Assembly: GCA_024349765.1 (NCBI GenBank)
Contig: AP026074.1
Coordinates: 682,001 to 746,000 of the forward strand
Origin: Streptomyces nigrescens
GTDB lineage: Bacteria; Actinomycetota; Actinomycetes; Streptomycetales; Streptomycetaceae
Reading direction: 5' to 3'
Length of the DNA stretch: 64,000 nt
In this document: positions 16,484 to 31,930 of the stretch, one piece after another
Layout: each line of letters begins with the position of its first letter
How positions within the stretch are numbered: the first letter of the stretch is position 1
Position numbers and translations under genes: made by a program
Notes under the pieces: generated by a model
Databases searched by the model: none
The model's input: the letters and a program-made list of their open reading frames with translations, nothing else
Told to the model about the DNA's origin: nothing

Positions 16484-17007
16484 CCTGCTGCCGACTCGCC
16501 GGATCCGGCCCTGTGCGTGAAGTGGTCGGTTCGAGCGAAGGCTGTCGGTTGCTGAGGGCTGATCGGTATAACTCGGCGCCGTGGAAGGGCGATTGAACGG
16601 CGGGTCGAATCCGTATGAGCGCCGTGTGCCAGCAGAAACGACGCCACCGGGACCGTTCCTCACCGTGGCGGAGATCCGGCGGCCCCCGGACGCTCTGCTT
16701 CCTCGCCCCAAGCCCCGGACGCAAGCCCCAGACCGGCCCAGTCACACACTCCCTGAACCGGTCCCACCGGCGCAGACGCCACCAAGCCACGGCCCGGCAC
16801 TGCCACTACCGAGGAAGAACCATCTCCGGCAACGATCTCTGACTGGAGTACTGGAGCACTGGAGGTCTGGAGTAGTGGAGTGCTGGAGCACCCGGGCGGA
16901 CGACCGCGCTCACGCACCGGGTGGACGGAAAAAGTCCTGGATGTCCCTTGATTCCCCTCTCCGATGCCCGAACACTGACGCGGAGGGGGACGGGGGAGGG
17001 GGACGGG
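16484..17007. other. Leader region of the SARP gene
   Basis: 524 bp with no convincing gene; plus-strand frames here are Pro/Arg-rich shadows. It contains a six-copy 8-bp tandem repeat (16843-16890) and a purine-rich GGAGGGGG ribosome-binding site just before 17008. The regulator's promoter is probably within it. Confidence 0.5.
16843..16890 (+). repeat. Six tandem 8-bp repeats upstream of the SARP gene
   Basis: Units of consensus CTGGAGYA run without gaps: CTGGAGTA, CTGGAGCA, CTGGAGGT, CTGGAGTA, GTGGAGTG, CTGGAGCA. They end 117 bp before the GTG of the large regulator and lie in non-coding DNA. They could be a protein-binding array or a slippage-prone phase switch. Confidence 0.85.
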
Positions 17008-19899
17008 GTGGCCGTCGAATTCTGCTTGCTTCAGACCATCAGTGCGCAGGTGGACGGCCGGGAGGTGGATCTGGGGCATCTGCGCCAGCGTCAGGTGCTC
17101 GCGGCTCTTCTCGTCGACGCCAATCGCCCCGTCTCCGTGGAGCGGTTGATCGACCGGCTGTGGGGCGAAGGCCCGCCGCAGCGCGCCGCGACGACGCTCT
17201 ACAGCTATCTGTCGCGGCTGCGTCGCGTCATCGAGCCGCTCGGCGCGTCGATCAGCCGCCACCCGCAAGGCTATGTGTGCGAGGTGGACCCGCAAGCGGT
17301 CGACCTGCACCGTTTCCGTGACCTGGTCGCACGTGCCCGTTCCGCCGGGGACGACACCCACGCCGCACGGCTGCTCACCGAGGCGCTGCGGCTGTGGCCC
17401 GGCGACACGCCGGCCGAGCCGGACACCCCGTGGTTCAACGCGCTGCGCGACACCCTCGAAGGTGAGCGCCTGGCCGCCGAGCTGGACCTCAACGACGTGC
17501 TGCTACGGCAGGGCCGGGAATCCGAACTGCCGGCCCCGCTGCGCCTACTGGCCCAGGCACACCCCCTCGACGAGCGGATCGCCGCGCAACTGATGCTCGC
17601 CCTGCACCGGCAGGGCCGGACCCCGCAGGCGCTGGAGGTCTACCGGGGCATCACCCGACTCCTGGACGCGGAGCTGGGACTCGCCCCGAGCCCCTCGCTC
17701 CGGCAATTGCACCAGGACATTCTCGTAGGCGCGCCACTCCTGGCCGTCGACAGTGCGGGCGGGCCTCTCGCCGACACGCCTCCCGGCTCCGGATCCGGCT
17801 CCGGGTCCGCATCCGGCTCCGGCCCCGGGGCCGGCTCCGATGAGGGGCACCGCCCAACGCCGGTGGCGGTCCCCGCAGAGGCGCGGTTCCCGGTGCCGCG
17901 TCAATTACCTTCGCCCCCACCGGTGTTCACCGGGAGGGGGCGCGCCATGGCGGAGCTCGACCGGCTCCTGGAACCGCCGTCCGGCCACGGCGGTACGGTG
18001 CCGATCGCGGGCATCGGCGGATCCGGCGGCATCGGCAAGACCTGCCTCGCCCTGCACTGGGCGCACCAGCGGCTGGACCAGTTCCCCGAGGGACAGCTCT
18101 ACCTGAACCTGCGCGGCTTCGAACCCTCCGGGACGCCGACGACCGTCGCCTCGGCCCTCCGCGACCTGCTCGACAGCCTGGGCGCACCCGACGGATCCGT
18201 CCCCACCGGACTGAACGCCCGGGCGGGGCTCTACCGCAGCCTCATCCAGGGACGCCGCATCCTGGTGATCCTGGACAACGCACGCGACGCCGAACAGGTC
18301 CTGCCCCTGCTCCCCGGCAGCCCCACCTGCGTCGTCATCGTCACCAGCCGCCACCACCTGGCCGGCCTGGTCACCACGCATGGCGCCCGCCTTCTCACGC
18401 TCGGCCCGCTGTCCACCGCCGACGCCGCGTCCCTGCTCACCCGCCGGCTCGGCCGGGAGCGGGTGCACAAGGAACCCGCCGCGGCCGCCGGTCTGCTCCA
18501 GCTGTGCGGCGGTCTGCCGCTGGCCATCAGCATCATCGCCGCCCGCGCCGCCGTCCATCCGACGTTCCCGCTGCAGGGGCTCATCCGCGATCTGCACGGG
18601 GCGGGCGGCGCCCTCGACACCCTCGACGCGGGGGACGACTCCGCCGACCTGCGGGCCGTCTTCGCCTCGTCCTACGGCGCGCTCAGTGAACCCGCACGCC
18701 GGATCTTCCCCCTGCTCGGTCTGCTCGCCGGGCCCGACATCGGCCTGGCCGCGGTGGCCGCCCTGGCCGGGGCCGAGCCCCGTCAGGTCGGCCGGGCCCT
18801 GACCGAACTGGTCCGCGCGCACCTGGTGACCGCCCACCGGCCCGACCGCTACACGATGCACGATCTGCTGCGCGCCTACGCCGCGGAACTGGCCGCGGCG
18901 GACCCGGCGAGCCGGTCCGCCTTCGAGCGCCTGGTCGACCACTATCTGCACACCGCCCATGCCGCCGACCGGCTGCTGTCTCCCCACGGAGAGCCGATCG
19001 CCCTGACGCCGGCGCTGCCGGGCGCGGCGCCCGTCCAGCTGGCCGACCACCAGGCCGCCCTGGCGTGGTTCGCCGCCGAACACGCCGTGCTGACCTCCCT
19101 CGTGGCTCAGGCTCGCCATGCCGAACTGCACGTCAAAACCTGGCAGTTGGCAGCCGTCCTGCCCACGTTCCTGGCGCGACGCGGCCTGTGGGACGAGCTC
19201 ACCGCGACGCAGTACGCCGGGCTCGAAGCGGCGACCGCCCTGGCCGACCGCTCGTACCAGGCACGTGCCCACCGCGAACTGGGCAACTCCTGCTGCGAAA
19301 CCGGCTGCTTCGACGATGCGCAGGCCCACCTGGAACAGGCCCTCGACTTGTACCGGGAGCTGGGCGACACGGTCGGCCAGGCCCACACCCACCTCAACCT
19401 CGGCTGGCTGTGGGAGCGCCGGGGAGATCAGCAAAGGGGCCTGGAACACGATCTGCTCGCACTGGACCGCTTCGAGGCCGCGGACCACGAGACCGGCCGG
19501 GCCAGGGCCCTCAATGCCGCCGGCTGGGACCATGCGCAGCTCGGCAAGTACGAGGAAGCGGCCGACTTCTGCCGGGAGGCGCTCGCCCTGCAGCAGCATC
19601 TCGGCGACCGCCGCGGCGAGGCGAACACCTGGGACAGCCTCGGGTACGCGCTCCAGCACCTCGGCGACCACCGGCAGGCGGCCGACTGCTTCCTGCGGAG
19701 CCTGCATCTGAACGAGGAACTCGGCCACCAGTACAACCAGGCCGAGACGCTGGAGCATCTCGGCGACACCCACGAAGCCGGCGGGGACACCGCGGCGGCC
19801 CGCGCGGCCTGGCAGCGGGCGGCGGACCTCCTGCACGCCACGGGACACCACGACGCGGACCTTCACCGGCTCCGCGGCAAACTCCAAAACCGCTCCTGA
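17008..19899 (+). CDS. AfsR/SARP-family regulator (wHTH-BTAD-NB-ARC-TPR)
   Basis: 963 aa. Domains in order: OmpR-like DNA-binding domain (about 1-92, 'SYLSRLRRVIEPLGASISR'); bacterial transcriptional activation domain (95-245); a Gly/Ser-repeat linker (about 251-275); an NB-ARC ATPase with P-loop GIGGSGGIGKT (335-345) and 'LVILDNARDAEQVLPLLPGS' (Walker B region); and C-terminal TPR-like helical repeats (about 740-950). GTG 17008 follows GGAGGGGG; the frame extends to 16921 without support. It lies directly upstream of the six-Cys peptide locus in the same direction, so it is most likely its pathway-specific activator. Confidence 0.88.
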   Translation: MAVEFCLLQTISAQVDGREVDLGHLRQRQVLAALLVDANRPVSVERLIDRLWGEGPPQRAATTLYSYLSRLRRVIEPLGASISRHPQGYVCEVDPQAVDLHRFRDLVARARSAGDDTHAARLLTEALRLWPGDTPAEPDTPWFNALRDTLEGERLAAELDLNDVLLRQGRESELPAPLRLLAQAHPLDERIAAQLMLALHRQGRTPQALEVYRGITRLLDAELGLAPSPSLRQLHQDILVGAPLLAVDSAGGPLADTPPGSGSGSGSASGSGPGAGSDEGHRPTPVAVPAEARFPVPRQLPSPPPVFTGRGRAMAELDRLLEPPSGHGGTVPIAGIGGSGGIGKTCLALHWAHQRLDQFPEGQLYLNLRGFEPSGTPTTVASALRDLLDSLGAPDGSVPTGLNARAGLYRSLIQGRRILVILDNARDAEQVLPLLPGSPTCVVIVTSRHHLAGLVTTHGARLLTLGPLSTADAASLLTRRLGRERVHKEPAAAAGLLQLCGGLPLAISIIAARAAVHPTFPLQGLIRDLHGAGGALDTLDAGDDSADLRAVFASSYGALSEPARRIFPLLGLLAGPDIGLAAVAALAGAEPRQVGRALTELVRAHLVTAHRPDRYTMHDLLRAYAAELAAADPASRSAFERLVDHYLHTAHAADRLLSPHGEPIALTPALPGAAPVQLADHQAALAWFAAEHAVLTSLVAQARHAELHVKTWQLAAVLPTFLARRGLWDELTATQYAGLEAATALADRSYQARAHRELGNSCCETGCFDDAQAHLEQALDLYRELGDTVGQAHTHLNLGWLWERRGDQQRGLEHDLLALDRFEAADHETGRARALNAAGWDHAQLGKYEEAADFCREALALQQHLGDRRGEANTWDSLGYALQHLGDHRQAADCFLRSLHLNEELGHQYNQAETLEHLGDTHEAGGDTAAARAAWQRAADLLHATGHHDADLHRLRGKLQNRS

Positions 19900-19954
19900 C
19901 CAGCTCATTCAAGAATCGGACAAGGTTTGTCCAGGACCGCCCGAGCATCGTGAG

Positions 19955-19973
19955 AGGTGCCAATACGGCACCT
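19955..19973 (+). promoter_or_regulatory. Small hairpin in the leader of the Cys-rich peptide gene
   Basis: AGGTGCC (19955-19961) pairs with GGCACCT (19967-19973) around AATAC. A second short palindrome, GGACAA-GGT-TTGTCC, lies about 30 bp upstream. The 90-bp SARP-to-peptide gap also contains two CAAG elements 11 bp apart, reminiscent of SARP sites but weak. Promoter and binding are inference. Confidence 0.4.
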
Positions 19974-19995
19974 GGAACGATTAGGGAGTGTGGAC

Positions 19996-20181
19996 GTGTA
20001 CCGGAAGATCGAAGCGATGGGGAGCAGGCTCCTGGAACGGTTCGTGCCCAAGGCCGAGGCATCCGCCGCCGGCTGCTATGTGTGCGTCACCGGCGGGCCG
20101 GGGTCCGGCTGCGCGCGGTGGAACCACACCTGGGTCAAGGACCAGTGCACGAATACGTTCATCCGCTGCGGCTGTTTCTGA
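19996..20181 (+). CDS. Six-cysteine precursor peptide (candidate disulfide-rich RiPP/bacteriocin)
   Basis: 61 aa in two parts. Residues 1-25 form a charged amphipathic leader (RKIEAMGSRLLERFVPK) ending AEASAA, which fits an A-x-A signal-peptidase site. Residues 26-61 are a compact core with Cys at 27, 30, 39, 51, 58 and 60, two Trp, and the ending CGCF. Six Cys could give three disulfides. The GTG at 19996 has AGGGAG seven bases upstream; a GTG at 19990 would add two residues. There is no dehydratase, radical-SAM or YcaO gene beside it, but redox, export and peptidase genes follow directly. No homologue is recognised; the product role is inference. Confidence 0.72.
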   Translation: MYRKIEAMGSRLLERFVPKAEASAAGCYVCVTGGPGSGCARWNHTWVKDQCTNTFIRCGCF

Positions 20182-20209
20182 CGGCGCGGTTCTGACAGAT
20201 CACCGTCGT

Positions 20210-20245
20210 CCGGCCGGGTCGCGCACAGCCGCGCCGCCCGGCCGG
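20210..20245 (+). terminator. Intergenic hairpin between precursor and mauE-like gene
   Basis: CCGGCCGGG (20210-20218) pairs perfectly with CCCGGCCGG (20237-20245). It lies 28 bp after the peptide stop and 28 bp before the next GTG. A leaky terminator or processing site here would give excess precursor mRNA over the maturation genes, as in many peptide clusters (inference). Confidence 0.55.
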
Positions 20246-20273
20246 CTCCGGCGCATGAAGGGGGATCCGTACC

Positions 20274-20834
20274 GTGGACATACTCGCTGTGGCCTGCGCT
20301 TCCTGCCTTGCCGTGGTCTTCGGCGCGGCGGCGCTGGGCAAGGTCCGCAGCAGGGCCGCGTTCTCCCGGTTCGCGCAGTCGCTGACCACCATGGACCTGC
20401 TGCCGGCCGGCTGGGTGCGCCCCTGCGCCGTGCTCGTGGCGGGGAGCGAGGTGGCAGTGCTCCTCCTGCTGCTGGCAAGCCCGTTGACGGCGCCTGCGGG
20501 CCTCGTGGCGTTCCTCCTCGCTGCCGGACTGCTGCTGGCGTTCACCTCGGGCGCCGCGCTCATGGTCGTCCGAGGGGTACGTGCGGAGTGCCGCTGCTTC
20601 GGGGCCTCCGGCACCCCGATGGGCCGGCTTCATGTGCTGCGCAACGGTGTGCTGACGCTGATCGCGGCGGGGGGAGCGCTCAGCAGCAGTGACATCGGAG
20701 CGGTCGCACCGGCGTACGCGGCGGTGGCCGTGGCCGGCGGGGCCGTCGTCGGGGCGCTGGTGACCAGGCTCGAAGACCTCGCGGCGCTGTTCCGCCCGTC
20801 GCTGCCGGCCCGGCCGGAACCCGCCCGCGACTGA
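20274..20834 (+). CDS. MauE/DoxX-family redox-associated membrane protein
   Basis: 186 aa with four or five hydrophobic helices. The family motif 'VVFGAAALGKVRSRAAFSRF' is at about residues 15-34, and 'AECRCFGASGTPMGRLHVLR' mid-protein carries the CxCFG loop; further Cys are at 8 and 11. MauE proteins pass reducing or oxidising equivalents to exported thiol proteins and usually pair with a thioredoxin-like MauD, as here. GTG at 20274. The gene lies 92 bp after the Cys-rich peptide, so its likely job is disulfide chemistry on that peptide. Confidence 0.8.
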   Translation: MDILAVACASCLAVVFGAAALGKVRSRAAFSRFAQSLTTMDLLPAGWVRPCAVLVAGSEVAVLLLLLASPLTAPAGLVAFLLAAGLLLAFTSGAALMVVRGVRAECRCFGASGTPMGRLHVLRNGVLTLIAAGGALSSSDIGAVAPAYAAVAVAGGAVVGALVTRLEDLAALFRPSLPARPEPARD

Positions 20835-20889
20835 GGGATCAACATCGGCCCGGCACCGCAGGGGCCGTACGGACAAGGGGAGTTGGGCG

Positions 20890-21450
20890 ATGTCTTTCCT
20901 GATTGCGGCAGTGGTGTTCGTCGGAGCGCTGTGCACGCTGGACCTGGTACTCACCCTGGGGGTGATCAAACGGCTGCGGGAGCACTCCGAGCGGCTGTCC
21001 GGGACGAGCGGCCCGGGCGGCCGGTTCGACACCCTCGACATGGCCGTGGGGGAGGAGGTGGGGGAGTTCACCACGTCCACCGTGGACGGCGAGCGGCTGA
21101 GCCGCGGGATGCTCGCCGCGGACACGCTGGTGGCGTTCTTCGCCCCCGGTTGTCAGCCGTGCCGGGAGAAGATGCCGGCGTTCGTGGACCACGCGCGGGC
21201 CCTGCCCGGTGGGCGGGCGCAGGTGGTGGCGGTCGTGGTCGGCGATCCCGCCGAGGCAGCCGCGTTCGTGGCCGAGCTGTCCCCGGTCGCCCGCGTGGTC
21301 GTCGAGGAGGGGCCTGAGGACCCGCTGAGCGCCGCGTTCCGGGCGCGCTCGTTCCCCACGGTGCTGCGGGTGTCCCCGTACGGCGACGGCCGGGTCCTGG
21401 TCACCGCGAACCGCATAGCGCTGGACCGACCGGTCACCGCGGCGCGATGA
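20890..21450 (+). CDS. Membrane-anchored thioredoxin-like protein (TlpA/MauD type)
   Basis: 186 aa. An N-terminal membrane helix (3-25) is followed by a thioredoxin fold outside the membrane, with active site C88-Q-P-C91 in 'VAFFAPGCQPCREKMPAF' and the cis-Pro loop 'RARSFPTVLRVS'. The MauD/TlpA layout suggests a thiol-disulfide oxidoreductase or isomerase. It overlaps the ABC gene by 4 bp (ATGA) and lies 55 bp after the MauE gene, so they are translated as a unit. Probable substrate: the six-Cys peptide. Confidence 0.85.
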   Translation: MSFLIAAVVFVGALCTLDLVLTLGVIKRLREHSERLSGTSGPGGRFDTLDMAVGEEVGEFTTSTVDGERLSRGMLAADTLVAFFAPGCQPCREKMPAFVDHARALPGGRAQVVAVVVGDPAEAAAFVAELSPVARVVVEEGPEDPLSAAFRARSFPTVLRVSPYGDGRVLVTANRIALDRPVTAAR

Positions 21451-23330
21451 CGGACACGGACGAAACACCGCGCGGACGCCGGGTGACCCGGGACACGGGG
21501 GCCCGGGTCACCACGGCGTGGTCGCTTGCGGCCAAGGCCGCGCCCGGCACCCTTGTCGCCTTTGTGCTGCTGACGCTGGCGACCGGCGGGCTGCCGGTCG
21601 TCACGGCGCTGCTGACCAAACTCATCCTGGATCACCTGGTCGCCGGTGCCTCGACCGGGACCCTGACCGGGCTGGGGCTCTGCCTCGCCGCGGTCGGCGT
21701 CGTGACCGGGGCGGCGCCGCAGGTCGGCCAGTATCTGCGCGCGGAGCTCGACCGCCGGGTCGGACTGCTCATGCAGGACCGGCTGTTCACCGCCGTGGAC
21801 GGGTTCGTCGGACTGGAACGGTTCGAGAACCCCCACTTCCTGGACCGACTGCGGCTGGCCCAGCAGACCGCCGGCGGCACCCCCAACGAAACCGTCTCCG
21901 GGGCACTGGGCCTCGTCCGGGCCGCCGTCACCCTCACCGGGTTCGTCGGCTCGCTGCTGGTGCTCAGTCCCGTCCTGACCGGGCTGGTGCTGGTGGCCGG
22001 AGTGCCGGTGCTGTGCGCGGAGATCGCGCTGTCGCGACGGCGGGCGCGGATGATGTGGGACATCGGCCCCGCCGAGCGGCGGGAGCTGTTCTACAACGAT
22101 CTGCTCTCCAGCATGGAAGCCGCCAAGGAGGTGCGGCTGTTCGGCATCGGGGGCTTTCTGCGCGGGCGGATGCTGGCCGAGCGGCGCACGTCCGACGCCG
22201 CCAAGCGAGCGGTGGACCGGCGGGAGGTCCGCGCCCAGGCGGGGCTCGGGCTGCTCGCCGCGCTGATCTCCGGCTGCGGACTCGTGTGGGCGGTGGGCGC
22301 GGCGCGGTCCGGCGACCTGTCGCCCGGTGACGTCACCCTGTTCGTGGCCGCGGTGGCCGGGGTGCAGGGCGCGCTCGCCACGCTCGCGCTGGAGGTCGCC
22401 CGCACGCACCAGGCGCTGCTGCTGCTCGACCACTACCTGGCGGTGACCACCGCCGGTCCCGATCTGCCCCTCGCGGCGGCGCCCCGGCCGCTGCCCGCCC
22501 TGAGCGGTGGAATCGAACTCCGCGACGTGTGGTTCCGATACTCCGACGCGCATCCGTGGATCCTGCGCGGGGTCAGCCTGCACATCCCGCACGGCCGGGC
22601 GCTGGCGCTCGTCGGGCTCAACGGAGCCGGGAAGTCCACGCTGGTCAAGCTGCTGTGCCGGTTCTACGACCCCACCCGCGGAGCGATCCTGTGGGACGGA
22701 GTGGACCTGCGCGAGGTGGACGTCACCGCCTACCGCCGACGCCTCAGCGTGGTGTTCCAGGACTATATGCACTACGACATGACGGCGGCGGAGAACATCG
22801 CGCTCGGGGATCTGGACGCGCTCCACGACGACCAGCGGCTTCGCGCTGCCGCCGAACGGGCCGGCATCCACGAGAAGTTGGCGGACCTGCCGCACGGCTA
22901 CCGCACCCTCCTGTCGCGGATCTTCTTCACCCGCCCCGAGGGGGACGGGGCACAGAGCGGGGTGATGCTCTCCGGCGGACAGTGGCAACGGCTGGCGCTG
23001 GCCCGCGCGTTCCTGCGTGAGGGGCGGGACCTGATGATCCTGGATGAACCCTCGGCCGGCCTCGACGCCGCGGCCGAGCACGAGATCCACGCCGCCCTGT
23101 GCGGCCACCGGGGCGACCGCACCGGCCTGCTGATCTCCCACCGGCTCAGCGCGGTACGTGACGCGGACCGGATCGTCGTGCTCAAGGACGGCCTCATCGC
23201 CGAACAGGGCAGCCATGACGCGCTGATGGCGCTGGACGGCGAGTACGCCCGCCTGTTCACCCTGCAGGCGACCGGTTACCGGACGGACGGCGAGCCGGTG
23301 GGCGCCGAGCCCGGTGCGGCGTGGTCATGA
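21447..23330 (+). CDS. ABC transporter, fused permease-ATPase (peptide exporter type)
   Basis: 627 aa type I ABC exporter half-molecule. A six-helix membrane domain covers about 30-320 and the nucleotide-binding domain 350-600. Walker A is GLNGAGKST (about 390), the Q-loop is in 'VVFQDYMHYDMTAAENI', the signature is LSGGQ (about 508), Walker B is LMILDEP and the H-loop is ISHRLS. There is no N-terminal C39 peptidase, so leader removal must be done by another enzyme; the next gene encodes an S26 peptidase. Its start overlaps the thioredoxin gene (ATGA). It most likely exports the Cys-rich peptide. Confidence 0.9.
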   Translation: MTDTDETPRGRRVTRDTGARVTTAWSLAAKAAPGTLVAFVLLTLATGGLPVVTALLTKLILDHLVAGASTGTLTGLGLCLAAVGVVTGAAPQVGQYLRAELDRRVGLLMQDRLFTAVDGFVGLERFENPHFLDRLRLAQQTAGGTPNETVSGALGLVRAAVTLTGFVGSLLVLSPVLTGLVLVAGVPVLCAEIALSRRRARMMWDIGPAERRELFYNDLLSSMEAAKEVRLFGIGGFLRGRMLAERRTSDAAKRAVDRREVRAQAGLGLLAALISGCGLVWAVGAARSGDLSPGDVTLFVAAVAGVQGALATLALEVARTHQALLLLDHYLAVTTAGPDLPLAAAPRPLPALSGGIELRDVWFRYSDAHPWILRGVSLHIPHGRALALVGLNGAGKSTLVKLLCRFYDPTRGAILWDGVDLREVDVTAYRRRLSVVFQDYMHYDMTAAENIALGDLDALHDDQRLRAAAERAGIHEKLADLPHGYRTLLSRIFFTRPEGDGAQSGVMLSGGQWQRLALARAFLREGRDLMILDEPSAGLDAAAEHEIHAALCGHRGDRTGLLISHRLSAVRDADRIVVLKDGLIAEQGSHDALMALDGEYARLFTLQATGYRTDGEPVGAEPGAAWS

Positions 23331-23809
23331 GGCCGGCGTCATGGGCCCTGGTGGCCGGAGTGCCGGTACTCGCGGTCGGCCTCGTCCTGACCGCCTCCGC
23401 GCTGCGACGGCGGCTGGTCGCGGTCACCGTGCGCGGCGCGAGCATGGAACCGGCCTACCGGGACGGCGACCGTGTCCTGGTACGCCGCGGCCGCCTGCCC
23501 GCACCGGGCCAGGTGGTCGTGGTGCGAAACCTCCCGGCCACCGGCCCGACCACCGCCCCGGTACCCACCGCCGCGACCCGCGCGGTGCCGGGCCCGGCCC
23601 TGCTGATCAAGCGCGTGGCCGCGGTGCCCGGGGACCCGGTGCCCCGCGACCGGGTGGCCGCACTGGCCGGTGTTCCCGAGCGGTACGTGCCCCACGGACA
23701 GCTGGTCCTGCTCGGGGACAATCCGACGGCCAGCTTCGACTCCCGCCACCGGGGCTACTTCGCTTCCGCGCATGTCGTGGGAACGGTGTGGCGCTCGCTT
23801 TCCCGCTGA
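23327..23809 (+). CDS. S26 family signal peptidase
   Basis: 160 aa, shorter than housekeeping SipS/LepB. One N-terminal membrane helix (6-24), nucleophile S39 in GASMEPAYRDGD, general base K95 in 'LLIKRVAAVPGD', and the closing box 'LVLLGDNPTASFDSR'. ATG 23327 overlaps the ABC stop (ATGA), so it is coupled to the exporter. A dedicated signal peptidase next to a precursor with an A-x-A site is the strongest argument that the leader is removed by S26 cleavage. Confidence 0.88.
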   Translation: MRPASWALVAGVPVLAVGLVLTASALRRRLVAVTVRGASMEPAYRDGDRVLVRRGRLPAPGQVVVVRNLPATGPTTAPVPTAATRAVPGPALLIKRVAAVPGDPVPRDRVAALAGVPERYVPHGQLVLLGDNPTASFDSRHRGYFASAHVVGTVWRSLSR

Positions 23810-23944
23810 CCGGGGTTCAGCGGCTGCCCTCCCGAACCCACGCCGCGGCACCGGCCGGCCGGCGCCCCCTGGCTGTTCCGACGGGGGCTACGGCGGTGCG
23901 CCCTGTGCCGGGCGGGGCACCGCGTGGGCGGCGGACACCGCACC

Positions 23945-23965
23945 TGATCGTTTAGTGATCGTTTA
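23945..23965 (+). promoter_or_regulatory. Direct repeat TGATCGTTTA with 11-bp period
   Basis: TGATCGTTTA occurs at 23945-23954 and 23956-23965. Direct repeats spaced one helical turn (11 bp) near the -35 region are the hallmark of SARP-activated promoters. The site is 54 bp before the next gene and 135 bp after the peptide locus. Binding by the nearby SARP is inference. Confidence 0.5.
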
Positions 23966-24018
23966 TTGAGCTTCGGCAGGATGTGCAGTGTCGGGAAGGA
24001 TCCTTCACAGGGGACGGT

Positions 24019-24327
24019 ATGGCCAAGCTCTATCTGGAGAAGCTCAAGTGCGTCACGACTGAGGGCTGGAGCGGCTCCGATGAGCCGAGGCTCGTTGTCC
24101 AGGATCGCGGCACTGTGTGGAACCGAACGGTGCTGGGAGACCGGATGTACACCGTCAAGTACGACTGCGACTTCACGGGAAAGATCGCTGTCTCCCTCGG
24201 GGAGGACGACGATCGGGTGGAGACTGACACGCTCGGGAAGCACTGGATTACGGATACGCCTGGTGAGCGCAGTCTGCGTTTCCAGGCGGATGGCGTTGAG
24301 TACAAGCTGCTGTATGCGGTGGAGTAG
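24019..24327 (+). CDS. Small beta-rich protein, unknown
   Basis: 102 aa, no signal peptide or membrane helix. Strand-rich with 'MAKLYLEKLKCVTTEGW', 'MYTVKYDCDFTGKIAVSLGE' and a final 'VEYKLLYAVE'; acidic, possibly a calcium-binding-like or jelly-roll domain. Codon use has lower GC3 than neighbours. ATG at 24019 with GGGGACGG before it. Behind an 11-bp-spaced repeat next to a peptide cluster, it might be an immunity or associated protein, but there is no direct evidence. Confidence 0.6.
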   Translation: MAKLYLEKLKCVTTEGWSGSDEPRLVVQDRGTVWNRTVLGDRMYTVKYDCDFTGKIAVSLGEDDDRVETDTLGKHWITDTPGERSLRFQADGVEYKLLYAVE

Positions 24328-24383
24328 TTGACTCGATCCCGCATTGGGGTTTGCATGCCTACTCATTGACTGCGGCTACAACT

Positions 24384-24932
24384 CTAGCCAACCGCATTGC
24401 CAATTGCGGTCCACGTCGCACAGATCACCGCGCCGGCCAGCCAGATCTCCGAGAGCCAGGACGTTGCGATTCTTCTCCGGACGGTAGAGTCTCGTGAGGC
24501 CGTCGGTTTCGCTTTCAGGTGCTGGCGGATCACTTCGGCCGCCCTGTCCGCGCTCCCTACATAATGATCTATGAGTGAGCCACTGTAGGCCGCTATGTAA
24601 ACCTCCTCACCCGCTGTCGTTTTTAGCTTTAAATTCCCTTGGGCATCGATGAGGGCTTGGGCTATGGCGTCACGGGTCACGCTGTATTTGAATACCGCGT
24701 TGACGACGCACACCTCATCTTGAGAGATGAGCACGCGAGTTCGAAAAATCCGCTGTATCAAGAATACGGTCGCAAAAGAGGCCGTGAGGCCAACTTGAGC
24801 CTTATTTGGCCCATTGAAGCCCATTCTCTTCGCAACGAGAGCCGCGAGGGCGAGGAGGAGAACGGAGAAGAACCACTGCAGGATGCGCTGGGACTTCCTT
24901 CGGAGTGTCACTGTGTCCTCTTGCCGCTTCAT
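24384..24932 (-). CDS. Membrane protein with PH-like domain, atypical composition
   Basis: 182 aa. Two hydrophobic helices near residues 17-32 and 38-58, a strand-rich middle ('LISQDEVCVVNAVFKYSVT', 'LKLKTTAGEEVYIAAYSG') that resembles a PH/YokE-like domain, and a final hydrophobic helix at about 160-178. ATG at 24932 with AGGAGAG upstream. Third positions use A and T far more often than nearby genes, a sign of recent transfer. Function unknown. Confidence 0.65.
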   Translation of the reverse strand: MKRQEDTVTLRRKSQRILQWFFSVLLLALAALVAKRMGFNGPNKAQVGLTASFATVFLIQRIFRTRVLISQDEVCVVNAVFKYSVTRDAIAQALIDAQGNLKLKTTAGEEVYIAAYSGSLIDHYVGSADRAAEVIRQHLKAKPTASRDSTVRRRIATSWLSEIWLAGAVICATWTAIGNAVG

Positions 24933-24961
24933 TCCGGTCTCTCCTTCTTCTCTGCCCGCTC

Positions 24962-24998
24962 CGTCAGGGTGGCCGTCCCATGGTCGGCCACCCTGACG
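24962..24998 (-). promoter_or_regulatory. Perfect 14-bp stem-loop upstream of the atypical membrane gene
   Basis: CGTCAGGGTGGCCG (24962-24975) pairs with CGGCCACCCTGACG (24985-24998) around a 9-nt loop, 29 bp upstream of the ATG at 24932. It may terminate transcription from the truncated upstream gene or act in the leader. No T-run on either strand. Confidence 0.55.
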
Positions 24999-25035
24999 AC
25001 TAGGTGATCGGCACGTTTTCGGGATCTGCGGCCAG

Positions 25036-26935: not shown

Positions 26936-27296
26936 GGTTGGTTGCGAGCCTGGGGGCCGGGACGCGGGGGTGACTGGTGCTGGGTGTCGCGTGACGGCGC
27001 AGCGGGAGCCGGCGGACAACCCAACACCAATTCCCCTTCCCATTCCCATTCCCCACTCCAACTCCACGAACCCCGCTCCGTGAACAGCCGTACGGCATCG
27101 GATAGTTGCCACGCGCTACGGGCAACTCGCCGTCCGCGGGGAGTGCCCTCGCCCTTCGTGGCCACCCGGTGGCGGTCGTGTCGGCGGGCCGGACCGTGCC
27201 AAGCCGTCCCACTGCTGCTGTCACACCCCTGGTATGGCGCAAAGCGTGGGGTATCTGTCGTTGACGCCATCCGATGCCGGATCGCAGGGTGGAGAG
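26936..27296. other. Intergenic gap
   Basis: 361 bp. A CCATTCC-rich pyrimidine tract lies near 27030-27060. No gene or hairpin is convincing. The promoter for the GlxA-type regulator should lie toward 27200-27290. Confidence 0.35.
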
Positions 27297-28268
27297 GTGG
27301 ATCAGCGCCGCATCGTCTTCGTGATTTTCGAGGGGTTCCAACCCCTTGACCTCTTCGGTCCGTACGAGGTGTTCGAGCATGCCCATCAACACACCGGCAG
27401 GTACTCCTGCCAGGTCACGGCACCGCGACCGGGGCCGGTACGGTCCGGCAGCGGCCTTCCGGTAGACGTTCCGTACGGTGTGGCCGAGCTGGACCCTGCG
27501 GGGATCGACACGCTGGTGGTCGCCGGTGGCGGAGGAGTCGACCAGGCCCGTCACGATCGGGCGCTGACAGGCTGGATCACCGACGCGGGGGCCGGCGCCC
27601 GACGCGTTGCCTCGGTGTGTAGCGGGGTGTTCCTGCTGGCCGCCGCCGGACTGCTCCAGGGACGGAGGGTGACCACCCACTGGGCACGTGAGCAGCAACT
27701 CATACGGGAGCATCCCGAACTGGTCGTCGACTGCGATCCGATCTTCTTCAGGGATGGGCGGGTGTGGACATCGGCCGGGGTGACGGCGGGGATGGACCTG
27801 GCACTCGCCCTGGTGGAGGACGACGTGGGCCGGGAGGTCGCCCACGCCATCGCGCAGGAGATGGTGCTGTTCCTGCGCCGCCCAGGCAACCAGTCGCAGT
27901 TCAGCGTGCCGTTGTGGTCCGGGCAGCCGTCCACTGATCCCATCCGCGCGGTGGTCTCGGCGATCCACGCCGACCCCGGTGCCCGGCACGGCATCGCCGA
28001 CCTCGCCTCGCACGCCGGGCTGAGCCCCCGTCACCTCCAGCGCAGGTTCACGGCCGAACTCGGCATCCCGCCCGCCACGTATGTCGAGGGCGTACGCATC
28101 GAGGCGGCGAAACGGGCCCTCGCCGAGTCCGGCCACCCCGTCGAGACCATCGCACGACGGTACGGCTTCGGCACCGCGGAGACGCTGCGCCGCGCGTTCC
28201 ACCGGCACCTGGGCATTGCACCGTCCGACTACCGCGACCGATTCCGTTCCACCAGGGAGTACCTATGA
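27297..28268 (+). CDS. GlxA-family regulator (DJ-1/PfpI plus AraC HTH)
   Basis: 323 aa. The N-terminal class-I glutamine-amidotransferase-like domain has the nucleophile-elbow motif 'ASVCSGVFLLAAAGLL' at about 104-119. A C-terminal AraC/XylS double helix-turn-helix follows (about 230-315, 'LASHAGLSPRHLQRRFTAEL', 'IARRYGFGTAETLRRAFHRH'). GTG 27297 follows GGTGGAGAG; an ATG at 27234 is possible. It overlaps the next gene by 4 bp (ATGA), so the two are coupled. Ligand unknown. Confidence 0.88.
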   Translation: MDQRRIVFVIFEGFQPLDLFGPYEVFEHAHQHTGRYSCQVTAPRPGPVRSGSGLPVDVPYGVAELDPAGIDTLVVAGGGGVDQARHDRALTGWITDAGAGARRVASVCSGVFLLAAAGLLQGRRVTTHWAREQQLIREHPELVVDCDPIFFRDGRVWTSAGVTAGMDLALALVEDDVGREVAHAIAQEMVLFLRRPGNQSQFSVPLWSGQPSTDPIRAVVSAIHADPGARHGIADLASHAGLSPRHLQRRFTAELGIPPATYVEGVRIEAAKRALAESGHPVETIARRYGFGTAETLRRAFHRHLGIAPSDYRDRFRSTREYL

Positions 28269-28870
28269 CCACCTACGGACTGCTGACGTTCGACGGTGCG
28301 GAGGAGTTGGACTTCGCCGGGCCTTGGGAGGTGTTCACCGCATCCTCCATGCTGCGCGACCATGCCGACACCGCGCTGCTCATCGCCGAACGCCCCGGCG
28401 CCGTCCGCTGCAACAAGGGCATGCGGGTGCTGCCGGACCACACCCTGGACGACCACCCTCCGCTGGACGTCCTCCTGGTCCCCGGCGGCAACGGGACCCG
28501 CCGCGAAGTGTCCAACCCCGTGCTCATCGACTGGATCCGCAAGACCGCCGCCGGCACCGCCTGGACCGCCGGGGTGTGCACCGGAGCCCTGCTGCTGCAC
28601 GAGGCAGGCCCGGCCCGCGGCCGCCGGGTCGCGACCCACTACCTGTTCGAGGACACCCTGCAGGCCAGGGGCGACATCACCGTGGTCCGCGACGCCCGTT
28701 ACGTCGTCGATGGGAACCTGATCACCAGCCAGGGCGTCTCGGCCGGGATCGACATGGCCCTGTGGCTCATCGGCCGCCTCCACGGCCGCGACCACGCCCG
28801 CGCCGTCCGCCGCTACATCCAGTACGAGCCGGCTCCGCCCTACCTCGCCGACGAGCCGTCCGCCGGCTGA
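28265..28870 (+). CDS. DJ-1/PfpI family protein (isonitrile-hydratase-like)
   Basis: 201 aa, single DJ-1 domain. The elbow Cys is in 'TAGVCTGALLLHEAGPARGR' and the early 'LDFAGPWEVFTA' is typical. Family members include isonitrile hydratase InhA, chaperones and proteases; the short form without HTH fits an enzyme. It is translationally coupled (ATGA) to the GlxA-type regulator, which shares its fold, so it is probably both regulated by and related to it. Confidence 0.85.
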   Translation: MTTYGLLTFDGAEELDFAGPWEVFTASSMLRDHADTALLIAERPGAVRCNKGMRVLPDHTLDDHPPLDVLLVPGGNGTRREVSNPVLIDWIRKTAAGTAWTAGVCTGALLLHEAGPARGRRVATHYLFEDTLQARGDITVVRDARYVVDGNLITSQGVSAGIDMALWLIGRLHGRDHARAVRRYIQYEPAPPYLADEPSAG

Positions 28871-29135
28871 CACCCCGTGACGGACGAGGCCGAGGGTGTG
28901 CCGCCGGCCGGAGCGAACGGTGCTCAGGCCACCACTTCCGATACCCGACCGGTGAATGCCTGAAGGCCTCGGTGTCACCACCGCCACGGGCATCGGTGAT
29001 GACGGCCGCGAGGTAGCCCGGGTCCGACGAGCCGGTGGGCCGGCCCTTCGTCACCGGCGGGCGCCGCTCGCTGGGTGCGGGCGTCCGGATCTCGCCCCAT
29101 GCTGGAAGTGAGGGGGGTAGGCGACGGAGGAAGTG

Positions 29136-29351
29136 GTGAGGATGCGGACCGTTGTGGACCTCACGCGCTGCCAGGGCTATGCGCAGTGCGTGTTCCTCGC
29201 GCCGGAAGTGTTCCAGCTGCACGGGGAGGAGGGATTGCTGTACGCCCCTGCCGTCCCCGACGACCAGATCGAGCGGGTGCGCCAGGCCGCGGTGGCCTGC
29301 CCGGTACAGGCGATCCTCCTCGGTGAGGAGGTGAGCGCCGGTGCCCGGTGA
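29136..29351 (+). CDS. Ferredoxin, single [3Fe-4S] or [4Fe-4S] cluster
   Basis: 71 aa. Cluster ligands in 'CQGYAQCVFLAPEVF' and 'ACPVQAI' give the C-x5-C...CP pattern of actinobacterial P450 ferredoxins. I start at GTG 29136, which has GGAGG five bases upstream (ATG 29142 is the alternative). The gene overlaps the reductase gene by 11 bp. It should pass electrons from the reductase to the P450 downstream. Confidence 0.88.
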   Translation: MRMRTVVDLTRCQGYAQCVFLAPEVFQLHGEEGLLYAPAVPDDQIERVRQAAVACPVQAILLGEEVSAGAR

Positions 29352-30708
29352 CCTCGCAGACGGCCGTGTCGTCATCGTCGGCGCGTCGCTGGCCGGGTTG
29401 AGGGCCGCGGAGACGCTGCGTACGGAGGGCTTCACCGGCTCACTGACCGTGGTCGGCGACGAGCCCCATCCGCCCTACGACCGGCCGCCGCTGTCCAAGC
29501 AGGTGCTCCTCGGCAAGGCGGCGGCGGACACCACCGGACTGCCGATGCGGCGGGACCCGGACGCCGACTGGCGGCTGGGGACACCTGCCACGGGGCTGGA
29601 CCTGCTCGGGAAACGGGTGGTGCTGGACGACGGCGAGTCACTGCCGTACGACCGGGTGCTCATCGCCACCGGGACCCGCGCGCGGCCCTGGCCCAACCCG
29701 GAGGAGGCCGCCCTGGACGGGGTGTTCACGCTCCGTACCCGGGACGAAGCCGGAAGGCTGGCCGAGTGTCTGGCCGCCGGGCCGCAGCGGGTGCTGGTGA
29801 TCGGTGCCGGTTTCACCGGCTCGGAGATCGCCTCGGCCTGCCGGGAACGGGGGCTGGCGGTCACGGTCGCCGAACGCGGGCCCGCACCCCTGGTGGGCGC
29901 GCTGGGCGGCACCCTGTCGAGGCTTGCCGCTGTCATGCAGCGCAACCACGGCGTCGACCTGCGCTGCGGGGTCACGGTCACCGCCTTGCGCGGCGACGGG
30001 AACGGCCGGTTCACCGGTGCGGACCTGTCCGACGGCACCCGCGTCGACGCGGACCTGTGCGTCGTGGCGCTGGGAGCCGTCCGCAACGTCGAATGGCTCG
30101 CGGAGTCCGGGCTGGCCGCCGGCCCGCGGGGGATCGCCTGTGACGCCGGCTGCCGGGCCTTCACCATGTACGGGATCGTCACCGACGACGTCTTCGTGGC
30201 CGGCGACGTGTCCCGCTTTCCCCACCCGCTGTTCGGATACCAGATGCTCTCCCTGGAGCACTGGGGCAACGCGGTCGAGCAGGCCGAAGTGGCGGCCCAC
30301 AACATGGTCAATCCAGGGCCACTGCAGCGCCCGCACCTGGCCATCCCGACGTTCTGGTCGACTCAGTTCGGGTTCAACATCAAGTCGGTGGGGGTGCCCA
30401 CCTACTCCGACCATGTGGTCATTGCCCAGGGCTCTCTGGAGGCGCGCCGTCTGGCGATGGTCTACGGCTACCAAGGGCGGGTCACCGCCGCGGTCACCGT
30501 CGACATGGCCAAGTCGCTCGACTACTACCGAAGCCTGATCGAGACGGCCGCTCCGTTCCCGCCCCCGACCGGAGCGGCGGACCGTGCGATCGCGGCCGAC
30601 ATCCCGATCCCGTCCGACGTCCCGGATCCGAAGGGGCTGTCCCACGGCCCCACCGTGGCACTCACGGGCTATCTGCCCGATCGCCGACTGACCGTGGTAC
30701 GGCCCTGA
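29341..30708 (+). CDS. FAD-dependent ferredoxin reductase
   Basis: 455 aa. Two Rossmann motifs: GASLAGLRAAE near residue 12 (FAD) and GAGFTGSEIASACRERG mid-protein (NADH), with 'VFVAGDVSRF' for FAD binding and a C-terminal reductase dimerisation domain. It belongs to the rhodocoxin/putidaredoxin reductase group. It starts within the ferredoxin gene and lies 37 bp before the P450, forming a complete three-component monooxygenase. Confidence 0.92.
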   Translation: MPGDLADGRVVIVGASLAGLRAAETLRTEGFTGSLTVVGDEPHPPYDRPPLSKQVLLGKAAADTTGLPMRRDPDADWRLGTPATGLDLLGKRVVLDDGESLPYDRVLIATGTRARPWPNPEEAALDGVFTLRTRDEAGRLAECLAAGPQRVLVIGAGFTGSEIASACRERGLAVTVAERGPAPLVGALGGTLSRLAAVMQRNHGVDLRCGVTVTALRGDGNGRFTGADLSDGTRVDADLCVVALGAVRNVEWLAESGLAAGPRGIACDAGCRAFTMYGIVTDDVFVAGDVSRFPHPLFGYQMLSLEHWGNAVEQAEVAAHNMVNPGPLQRPHLAIPTFWSTQFGFNIKSVGVPTYSDHVVIAQGSLEARRLAMVYGYQGRVTAAVTVDMAKSLDYYRSLIETAAPFPPPTGAADRAIAADIPIPSDVPDPKGLSHGPTVALTGYLPDRRLTVVRP

Positions 30709-30745
30709 GGCTGAGCCACGTCCCGCTCCACCACGAGGAGTCACC

Positions 30746-31930
30746 ATGGAGCCCGACACCTTGCTGGCACGGATCACCGACTACACCAGTCGCCCCTATC
30801 CCTACCCGCTGTACGCGGAACTGCGCGAGGCCGGTCCCGTGGTGCGGCAGGCGGACGGCAGCTGTCTGGTCGGCACCTACCACGAGATCGCAGCTCTGCT
30901 CCACGACCCGCGGATGAGTGTCGATCCCCGTACCCGTGGCGAGGTGACACACAAGCCGCCGTTCCTGCGGCTCGACGACCCGGAGCACCACCGGCTGCGC
31001 ACTTTGGCCATGCGGCCGTTCGGTCCCCCGCACAGTCCGGGCCGGGTCGACGCCATGCGCGGCGAGATCGACCGGATCACCGAGGGACTGATGGAGCCGT
31101 TCGAGGCGGGCAGCCAGGTCGACATCGTCGACGATTTCGCCTACCCCCTGCCCGTCACGGTGATCTGCCGTCTGCTCGGCGTGCCGCGTGAGGACGAGCC
31201 GCTGTTCCGGGCCTGGTCCGACGCCCTGGTCGCAGCCGCCGACGTCAGGCCCGAAGCGGACACCACCGAGGCGGACAAGGCGGGCGACCAGGCGCGGATC
31301 GAGATGGGCGGGTACCTGGTGAACCTCGCCGAGCAGCGCCGTGGCCGGCCGGGCGACGACATGCTCTCCGCCTTCGTCAACGAACCGGACCCGGCCCTGC
31401 GGCTCACCCAGGAGGAACTCGCGGAAACCGCCGTGCTGCTCCTCATCGCCGGACACGAGACCACGGTCAACCTGATCACCAACGGTGTGCTCACCCTGCT
31501 GCGCCAACCCGAGCATCTGGACCACCTGCGGCGCGAGCCCGCCCTGCTGCCGCGAGCGGTCGAGGAACTGCTGCGCTATGAACCCCCGGTCCACATGCGG
31601 GAGCGCGTCCCCCACGCGGACATCGAGGTCAGCGGTACCACGATCTCCCCGGGCACGTCCGTCGTCCTGGTGCTGGCCTCGGGCAACCGCGACCCCAAGC
31701 GATTCCCCGACCCCGACCGGTTCGACCCCACCCGCCCGGACATCGAGCACCTCGGCTTCGGCGGCGGCATCCACCTGTGCTACGGCGCACCCCTCGCCCG
31801 CATCGAGGCCGAGTCCGCGCTCGGCGCGCTGATCCCGTGGCTCGGCTCGGCACGCCTGTCCCAGGACCCGCCCCCCTACCGGCAGAACGCCATGCTCCGC
31901 GGCCCCCGCCACTTGCCCGTCGACCTCTGA
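30746..31930 (+). CDS. Cytochrome P450
   Basis: 394 aa, class I bacterial type. I-helix AGHETT (about 235-240), K-helix 'AVEELLRYEPP' with the ExxR pair, and heme-binding FGGGIHLCYG with the thiolate Cys near 344. A GAGGAG lies before the ATG. It is cotranscribed with its ferredoxin and reductase. Substrate unknown; the CYP105-like sequence style suggests oxidation of secondary metabolites or xenobiotics, which is inference. Confidence 0.93.
   Translation: MEPDTLLARITDYTSRPYPYPLYAELREAGPVVRQADGSCLVGTYHEIAALLHDPRMSVDPRTRGEVTHKPPFLRLDDPEHHRLRTLAMRPFGPPHSPGRVDAMRGEIDRITEGLMEPFEAGSQVDIVDDFAYPLPVTVICRLLGVPREDEPLFRAWSDALVAAADVRPEADTTEADKAGDQARIEMGGYLVNLAEQRRGRPGDDMLSAFVNEPDPALRLTQEELAETAVLLLIAGHETTVNLITNGVLTLLRQPEHLDHLRREPALLPRAVEELLRYEPPVHMRERVPHADIEVSGTTISPGTSVVLVLASGNRDPKRFPDPDRFDPTRPDIEHLGFGGGIHLCYGAPLARIEAESALGALIPWLGSARLSQDPPPYRQNAMLRGPRHLPVDL

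Follow-up and report, generated by a model that had tools for sequence, protein, structure and literature searches.

We analysed a 64,000-nucleotide stretch of the Streptomyces nigrescens genome (positions 682001–746000 of contig AP026074.1; source genome, 9.33 Mb), hereafter the window, and found that the gene cassette described at positions 17008–23809 is real. The open reading frame (ORF) list contains six genes, all on the plus strand, for an AfsR/SARP regulator, a 61-amino-acid peptide, a MauE protein, a CQPC thioredoxin, an ABC exporter, and an S26 peptidase. Their number, direction, and order agree with the preliminary description of this DNA, and the protein identities proposed there (SARP, MauE, CQPC thioredoxin, peptidase-less ABC protein, and S26) were borne out by Pfam and NCBIfam. 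The features reported below suggest that the cassette probably makes, oxidizes, exports, and trims one disulfide-rich peptide. This peptide belongs to a genuine and widespread family of leader-guided peptides whose cysteines are likely to be fully paired in disulfides; no characterised member was found. The features of the cassette are as follows.

17008–19899 (possible start 16921), plus strand: AfsR/SARP-type regulator with BTAD, NB-ARC, and TPR domains (Pfam/NCBIfam).
19996–20181, plus strand: gene for the 61-amino-acid precursor, GTG start, six core cysteines (profile, alignment, and codon comparison).
19996–20067, plus strand: leader of 24 codons ending in V-P-K-A-E-A-S-A, with the A22-x-A24 site (alignment of 70 precursors).
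20068–20178, plus strand: predicted mature core, AGCYVC...CGCF, 37 amino acids, six cysteines (cleavage site predicted from conservation).
20274–20834, plus strand: MauE-family membrane protein with C106-R-C108-F-G (PF07291).
20890–21450, plus strand: membrane-anchored thioredoxin-like protein with CQPC (AhpC-TSA).
21447–23330, plus strand: ABC exporter with a transmembrane and a nucleotide-binding domain, in which no C39 peptidase domain was found (Pfam/NCBIfam).
23321–23809, plus strand: small S26 signal peptidase with one transmembrane segment (PF10502 and TIGR02227, above cut-off).

The peptide read from GTG 19996 has the length, the six cysteines, and the spacing (C-x2-C-x8-C-x11-C-x6-C-x-C) that had been described. 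Its start agrees with those of relatives that begin at the same place (MYKRLEAVG and MYQKLEALG). A precursor of 63 amino acids is also possible, because a second GTG (19990), two codons upstream, matches an ATG in Streptomyces inhibens. The gene differs from its S. inhibens counterpart at nine synonymous and no nonsynonymous positions in 61 codons; its codons are therefore under purifying selection and do not drift neutrally. This comparison, together with the homologous precursors encoded at 76 of 80 related loci, shows that the peptide gene is genuine. When 7.9 kb (16801–24700) were compared with S. inhibens, similarity at the DNA level covered 16909–17798 (87%) and 17865–23816 (90%). It spans the six genes and stops right after the S26 gene, so they behave as a single unit. 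The tight packing noted earlier was found as an ATGA overlap of the thioredoxin and ABC genes (21447–21450) and a 10-base overlap of the ABC and S26 genes (23321–23330).

Related loci were collected through the ABC protein, and the best 80 of 194 relatives were retained. Besides Streptomyces, they come from Nonomuraea, Actinomadura, Micromonospora, Catellatospora, Pseudonocardia, and other genera. By means of an iterated profile, a precursor with the same leader of about 24 residues was detected in the 76 loci mentioned above, giving 82 precursors across 77 sources with the window included. The four remaining loci are L054, L060, and L068, on contigs that stop a short way upstream of the genes found, and L052, which also lacks the N-terminal ~100 residues of MauE; thus, a search for loci that lack the peptide found none among the 80 with both a complete upstream region and a complete MauE. 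Two or three precursor genes are present at some loci (e.g., L043, L084, L087, L102, L148, L149, L159, and L163). In hidden Markov model (HMM) searches, the peptide, MauE, thioredoxin, and S26 all accompanied the ABC gene within the fetched stretch in 64 of the 80 loci.

The precursor alignment (A1) comprised 70 of the 82 precursors. Nine were left out as near-identical (L037, L039, L044, L045, L049, L074, L075, L106, and one of three in L087), and three were left out for uncertain starts (L078, L100, and L112, with 6, 8, and 6 cysteines). The leader is conserved, with an approximate consensus of L-x-D-R-L-L-x-R-x-V-P-x-x-x-A-x-A; A24 was present in 70/70 sequences, A22 in 65/70 (valine in the other five), and P18 in 63/70. 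The cores are hypervariable and have little in common except cysteine, and the first cysteine stands 0–5 residues past the A-x-A in 68 of the 70 precursors. These sequences have the layout of ribosomally synthesized and post-translationally modified peptides (RiPPs), namely an encoded precursor, a conserved leader, a variable core, and adjoining dedicated maturation genes. The leader looks amphipathic, and its maximal Kyte-Doolittle hydropathy over 15 residues had a median of 0.86 (range, −0.01 to 1.71); a small peptide secreted by the Sec route was rejected for the 70 precursors because this hydrophobicity is too weak. Searched against NCBIfam, Pfam, and PDB sequences, the precursors had no credible match; the weak matches to CBM_14 (4/70 precursors, best E 5e-4) and to a defensin model (one precursor) were taken as chance. 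The AlphaFold2 (AF2) model of the precursor was too weak for use (pLDDT 60, pTM 0.29). The predicted core with three disulfides has a computed monoisotopic mass of 3990.67 Da.

Full pairing in disulfides predicts even numbers of cysteines, and the counts match this prediction. The cores in A1 contained 4 (two precursors), 6 (22), 7 (one), 8 (33), 10 (10), or 12 (two) cysteines, so that 69 of 70 were even. Among further non-identical cores, 51 of 52 were even, the odd one coming from the degenerate locus L145. Among 65 core types that share less than 50% identity, 63 were even (P 6e-17 at an even share of one half). Control ORF tails with 4–12 cysteines were even in 769 of 1101 cases (70%), and the P value of the cores at that share is 3e-8; the control share of 0.70 is generous, because tails with four cysteines dominate it. 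The leader pattern skipped four weak matches, i.e., L164 (6 cysteines), L166 (4 cysteines), and the cut-short second ORF of L158 and L174 (3 cysteines).

The leader/core layout and the cysteine-rich cores also look like precursors whose cysteines are modified by enzymes, for example to thioethers as in lanthipeptides or sactipeptides. Thioethers to Ser/Thr or to alpha-carbons do not require an even cysteine count, and no Lan, radical-SAM, or YcaO domain was found in the cassette or in 12 scanned flanking proteins of the window (10–32 kb), so the absence of these enzymes stated in the preliminary description holds over that range. Lanthipeptide, sactipeptide, and thiopeptide assignments were rejected on the absence of these domains from the same proteins, and we consider an enzymatic modification of this kind very improbable. 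At the other loci, flanking genes were grouped by clustering only and not scanned for these domains.

We investigated the co-occurrence of the peptide with its putative machinery in 295 genomes of the genus. The peptide profile (E≤0.001) gave 68 matches in 49 genomes, and the ABC profile (E≤1e-150) matched in 50 genomes of the same sample. Both were present in 47 genomes, the peptide only in 2, the ABC protein only in 3, and neither in 243 (Fisher P 2e-48); this peptide profile was trained on ABC-linked loci, some of them from species that are also in the genome sample. The two genomes with the peptide only (G102 and G264) gave the weakest matches, in regions without partner genes (L173 and L174), and the match in G264 resembles a stop-bearing relic. 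As for the ABC-only genomes, G118 has a divergent six-cysteine core in an ORF at the right place, MauE was found in G128 except for its first ~30 residues, and neither MauE nor thioredoxin was found in G258. Around the peptide matches in the 48 other positive genomes, 48 of 58 regions hold all four of ABC, thioredoxin, MauE, and S26. The incomplete regions comprise two at contig ends (L150 and L201), one in which S26 was not found (L199), two with a remnant or split ABC gene (L145 and L177), two in which MauE was not found (L151 and L152), one cut short of its ABC gene (L172; L207 shows ABC, MauE, and S26 about 7 kb off), and the weak matches L173 and L174. These results indicate that the peptide accompanies the machinery, as the proposed search for co-occurrence had anticipated. 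A single-sequence peptide search was less productive, with mostly weak matches in 29/295 genomes at E≤0.01. Across the phylum, 396 genomes gave three matches, two of them in the genus and the third (G439) inside a 575-residue frame and probably due to chance; the family thus appears sparse outside the genus in this sample, although the ABC-based search found members in other genera.

The proteins MauE and MauD-like thioredoxins take their name from the maturation of methylamine dehydrogenase (PMC7794033), and the four genes could in principle serve such an enzyme or another substrate, with the peptide incidental. We regard this as extremely improbable in view of the near-perfect co-occurrence and the presence of the peptide in 76/80 loci. 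Moreover, maturation of methylamine dehydrogenase itself was rejected, because no MauD (TIGR02661) match was obtained in the source genome at E≤0.001 (other mau genes were not searched for); the single MauE above cut-off in that genome is that of the cassette. Clustering of neighbours likewise revealed no alternative substrate, since no family other than the cassette genes and regulators was present in more than 8 of 81 loci. Clusters in 5–8 of the 81 loci, at scattered positions, comprised a short-chain dehydrogenase, DJ-1/AraC, proteins of the response-regulator, kinase-like, and dehydrogenase-like types, and others that resemble antisense artefacts; the gene calls behind this clustering were rough, and the thioredoxin and S26 families were each divided over more than one cluster.

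The catalytic motifs of the cassette proteins are intact in alignments of sequences that were chosen by BLAST similarity, with the window included. The MauE protein matched PF07291 (E 6e-21) and gave an AF2 model with a pLDDT of 92.7; C106 and C108 were both kept in 60/60 sequences. In the thioredoxin, which has an AhpC-TSA match and one N-terminal transmembrane segment, C88 and C91 of C88-Q-P-C91 were both kept in 77/77 sequences. The ABC protein matched ABC_tran, and no C39 peptidase was among the matches listed (25 of 189 NCBIfam families). The S26 protein matched Peptidase_S26 (E 9e-18) and exceeded the TIGR02227 cut-off; Ser41 was kept in 73/74 sequences, Lys97, G132, and D133 in 74/74, and N134 in 71/74. 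This protein qualifies as a type I signal peptidase, because the Ser-Lys dyad and the GDN box are kept. Two further alignments, A2 and A3, comprised 47 of 60 MauE and 28 of 81 ABC sequences, respectively. An anti-phage defence function was rejected; the one PADLOC match, mad3, covers the ATPase portion of the exporter.

From the gene set, the leader, the A-x-A site, the parity of the cysteines, the co-occurrence, the selection, and the intact catalytic motifs, we infer the following route. The conserved leader of about 24 residues, which is not a Sec signal, would bring the precursor to its dedicated ABC exporter, and the S26 peptidase would cut the leader off after the A-x-A (A24). Signal peptidases prefer A-x-A. 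The CxxC thioredoxin, usually with MauE, would form or sort disulfides and thereby bring the core cysteines into pairs, and the AfsR/SARP protein probably controls the cassette. The sequence features support the preliminary description, which had proposed maturation by disulfide chemistry and signal-peptidase cleavage. Because the leader is fixed and the cores are hypervariable, an antagonistic, bacteriocin-like role of the product is likeliest; a role in signalling is possible.

Several observations weigh against this route. One precursor type with an intact locus (L055) has seven cysteines. With the window excluded (n = 81), 62 precursors precede the ABC gene on the same strand, 14 follow it, and 5 lie on the opposite strand, so that 19 do not have the upstream, same-strand position. 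The gene set proposed for the cassette is also not constant in the family: the thioredoxin was undetected in only 2 of 80 loci, both short contigs, whereas MauE was undetected in 12 and S26 in 4, and some of these loci had room for the gene (e.g., for S26 in L040 and L079). No immunity gene was recognised. A Foldseek search with the MauE model gave no match at E≤0.001, and no DsbB/VKOR relative was among the matches listed. Finally, the thioredoxin has no Lys/Arg residue before its transmembrane segment and a mean of 2.9 in the 12 residues after it (77/77 sequences), and MauE has means of 4.7 in loop 1 and 4.2 in the CxC loop versus 0.3 in loops 2 and 4. These charge patterns suggest, under the positive-inside rule, that both redox sites are cytoplasmic, which is unexpected for a simple oxidation outside the cell.

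These charges can be explained if the thioredoxin and MauE oxidise the precursor on the cytoplasmic face, with electrons passing to quinone or to a cytosolic carrier, if the ABC protein exports the folded peptide, and if S26 cuts during or after export. Lasso and lanthipeptide pathways likewise export folded peptides by ABC proteins, and an exported redoxin of the source genome (L210) shows the reverse pattern, with seven Lys/Arg residues before and none after its transmembrane segment. However, the positive-inside rule is statistical, and this redoxin is a single control from the same genome; the start codons of the relatives were set from the alignment, so longer N-termini could escape; the cytoplasm is normally reducing; and the charges at the S26 anchor are ambiguous (means of 1.75 before and 2.56 after, 63 sequences). 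We judge oxidation before export to be a substantial possibility, short of an even chance. If it is true, oxidation by thioredoxin and MauE on the cytoplasmic face would represent both a novel site of, and a novel machinery for, bacterial disulfide formation. The redox pair may instead serve in reduction or isomerisation, keeping the precursor in its reduced state or reshuffling wrong disulfides, with general oxidation outside making the bonds. MauD/TlpA-type thioredoxins are often reductants, and the thioredoxin is more constant than MauE across the loci, but the redox direction is not fixed by the CQPC motif and a MauE partner alone; such a function appears unlikely, yet deserves to be taken seriously. 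A wider proposal, which we offer as speculative and rather doubtful, is that a widespread actinomycete system generates diversity among disulfide-knotted peptides: a single invariant leader and a single cassette for redox chemistry, export, and proteolysis would process many unrelated cysteine scaffolds (4–12 cysteines, without shared spacing), much as in cone-snail toxins, with the disulfides made on the cytoplasmic side by thioredoxin and MauE before export.

The oxidized and exported peptide proposed here has partial counterparts in known systems. Class II disulfide bacteriocins have a double-glycine leader and a C39-type ABC peptidase. Pediocin PA-1 with PedC and bactofencin A are likewise small secreted disulfide peptides with an ABC exporter and an adjacent thioredoxin-like helper. 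Unlike these, the cassette has an A-x-A leader, a peptidase-less ABC protein, and a separate S26 peptidase; a double-glycine class II bacteriocin was rejected, because the leader ends in A-x-A in 65/70 and V-x-A in 5/70 precursors and no C39 domain was among the ABC matches listed. Actifensin-like defensin bacteriocins are also actinobacterial and disulfide-rich; according to a review (PMC7616364), they keep the defensin disulfide pattern, whereas the cores of the cassette vary in cysteine number and spacing over one leader. The MauE and MauD proteins of methylamine dehydrogenase belong to the same protein families, and the substrate of the cassette would be a small peptide.

The closest precedent is decRiPPter (PLoS Biol 2020, PMC7794033). 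That paper presents three candidate families that contain mauE, of which one contains mauD as well, and whose precursors have at least 8 cysteines; the clusters, from Streptomyces, were chosen for transporter, peptidase, and regulator genes, and the help of MauE in disulfide formation is a speculation there. These families are very likely the same broad system. In the sections consulted they stand as candidates, and a product, a common leader, an A-x-A site, a cysteine-parity rule, and a spread beyond Streptomyces were not found; the window precursor has 6 cysteines, and the two sets were compared by description only. Among the matches listed in open-licence PMC papers, decRiPPter was the only one that joins MauE to RiPP-like clusters. 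The preliminary description had taken the combination of genes as possibly undescribed; this stands in so far as no characterised member was found, but the idea of MauE with a cysteine-rich precursor is already in print in the decRiPPter candidate families. The family is sizeable (49/295 sampled genus genomes) and is recognised by neither NCBIfam nor Pfam, but it can readily be mined with the leader profile and the cysteine-parity rule. Such a compact cassette, with a single machinery that handles many disulfide scaffolds, would be useful in antimicrobial discovery. Furthermore, the cassette lets one ask how MauE-type proteins contribute to disulfide formation, and the question of the membrane side is open to direct test.

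The regulator combines BTAD, NB-ARC, and TPR domains and is AfsR-like, scoring far below the AfsR equivalog cut-off; S. inhibens has a protein with 84% identity at the same position. At E≤1e-40, 26 SARP ORFs were found in 23 of 80 loci, against about 1.2 ORFs expected, an approximate value derived with two programs from nine other matches in the source genome. The SARP partner given in the preliminary description is thus present here and frequent in the family, but it is not constant. Another neighbour cluster, whose representative has an HTH_31 domain, was present in 11 loci.

The cassette was also observed on plasmids. Copies in Streptomyces atratus (L220, NZ_CP108285.1) and Streptomyces clavuligerus (L221, NZ_CP065235.1) have the same gene order and, between them, three precursors with six cysteines each, and their precursors and thioredoxin are annotated as hypothetical proteins. 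An ABC relative (E≤1e-100) was found in 28 plasmid records; a phage search with the peptide and a plasmid search at the DNA level gave no match. The S. atratus cassette adjoins an annotated integrase. Horizontal movement fits this occurrence on plasmids, in S. atratus beside an integrase. Two genomes carry inverted pairs of copies. In G166 they lie at C1:86839–87000 and 9037358–9037519, about 87 kb from each end of a 9.12-Mb contig (a terminal inverted repeat), and in G137 at C1:4347469 and 4360033, about 12.6 kb apart, with the ABC gene split over frames in both.

In the window, the G+C content falls from 74% to 58% at 24000–24999, beyond the end of the S. inhibens similarity, and a 114-amino-acid ORF at 23983–24327 has no Pfam or NCBIfam match; positions 23817–24999 may be the edge of an inserted cassette. 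The scanned flanks encode MFS and phosphate transporters, a glyoxalase, SnoaL, DUF1877, DUF2231, and DJ-1 proteins, a ferredoxin-reductase-like protein, and a P450. A row of genes at 27234–31930 on the plus strand, apparently unrelated to the cassette, encodes two DJ-1/PfpI proteins (one with an AraC-type domain), the ferredoxin-reductase-like flavoprotein, and the P450.

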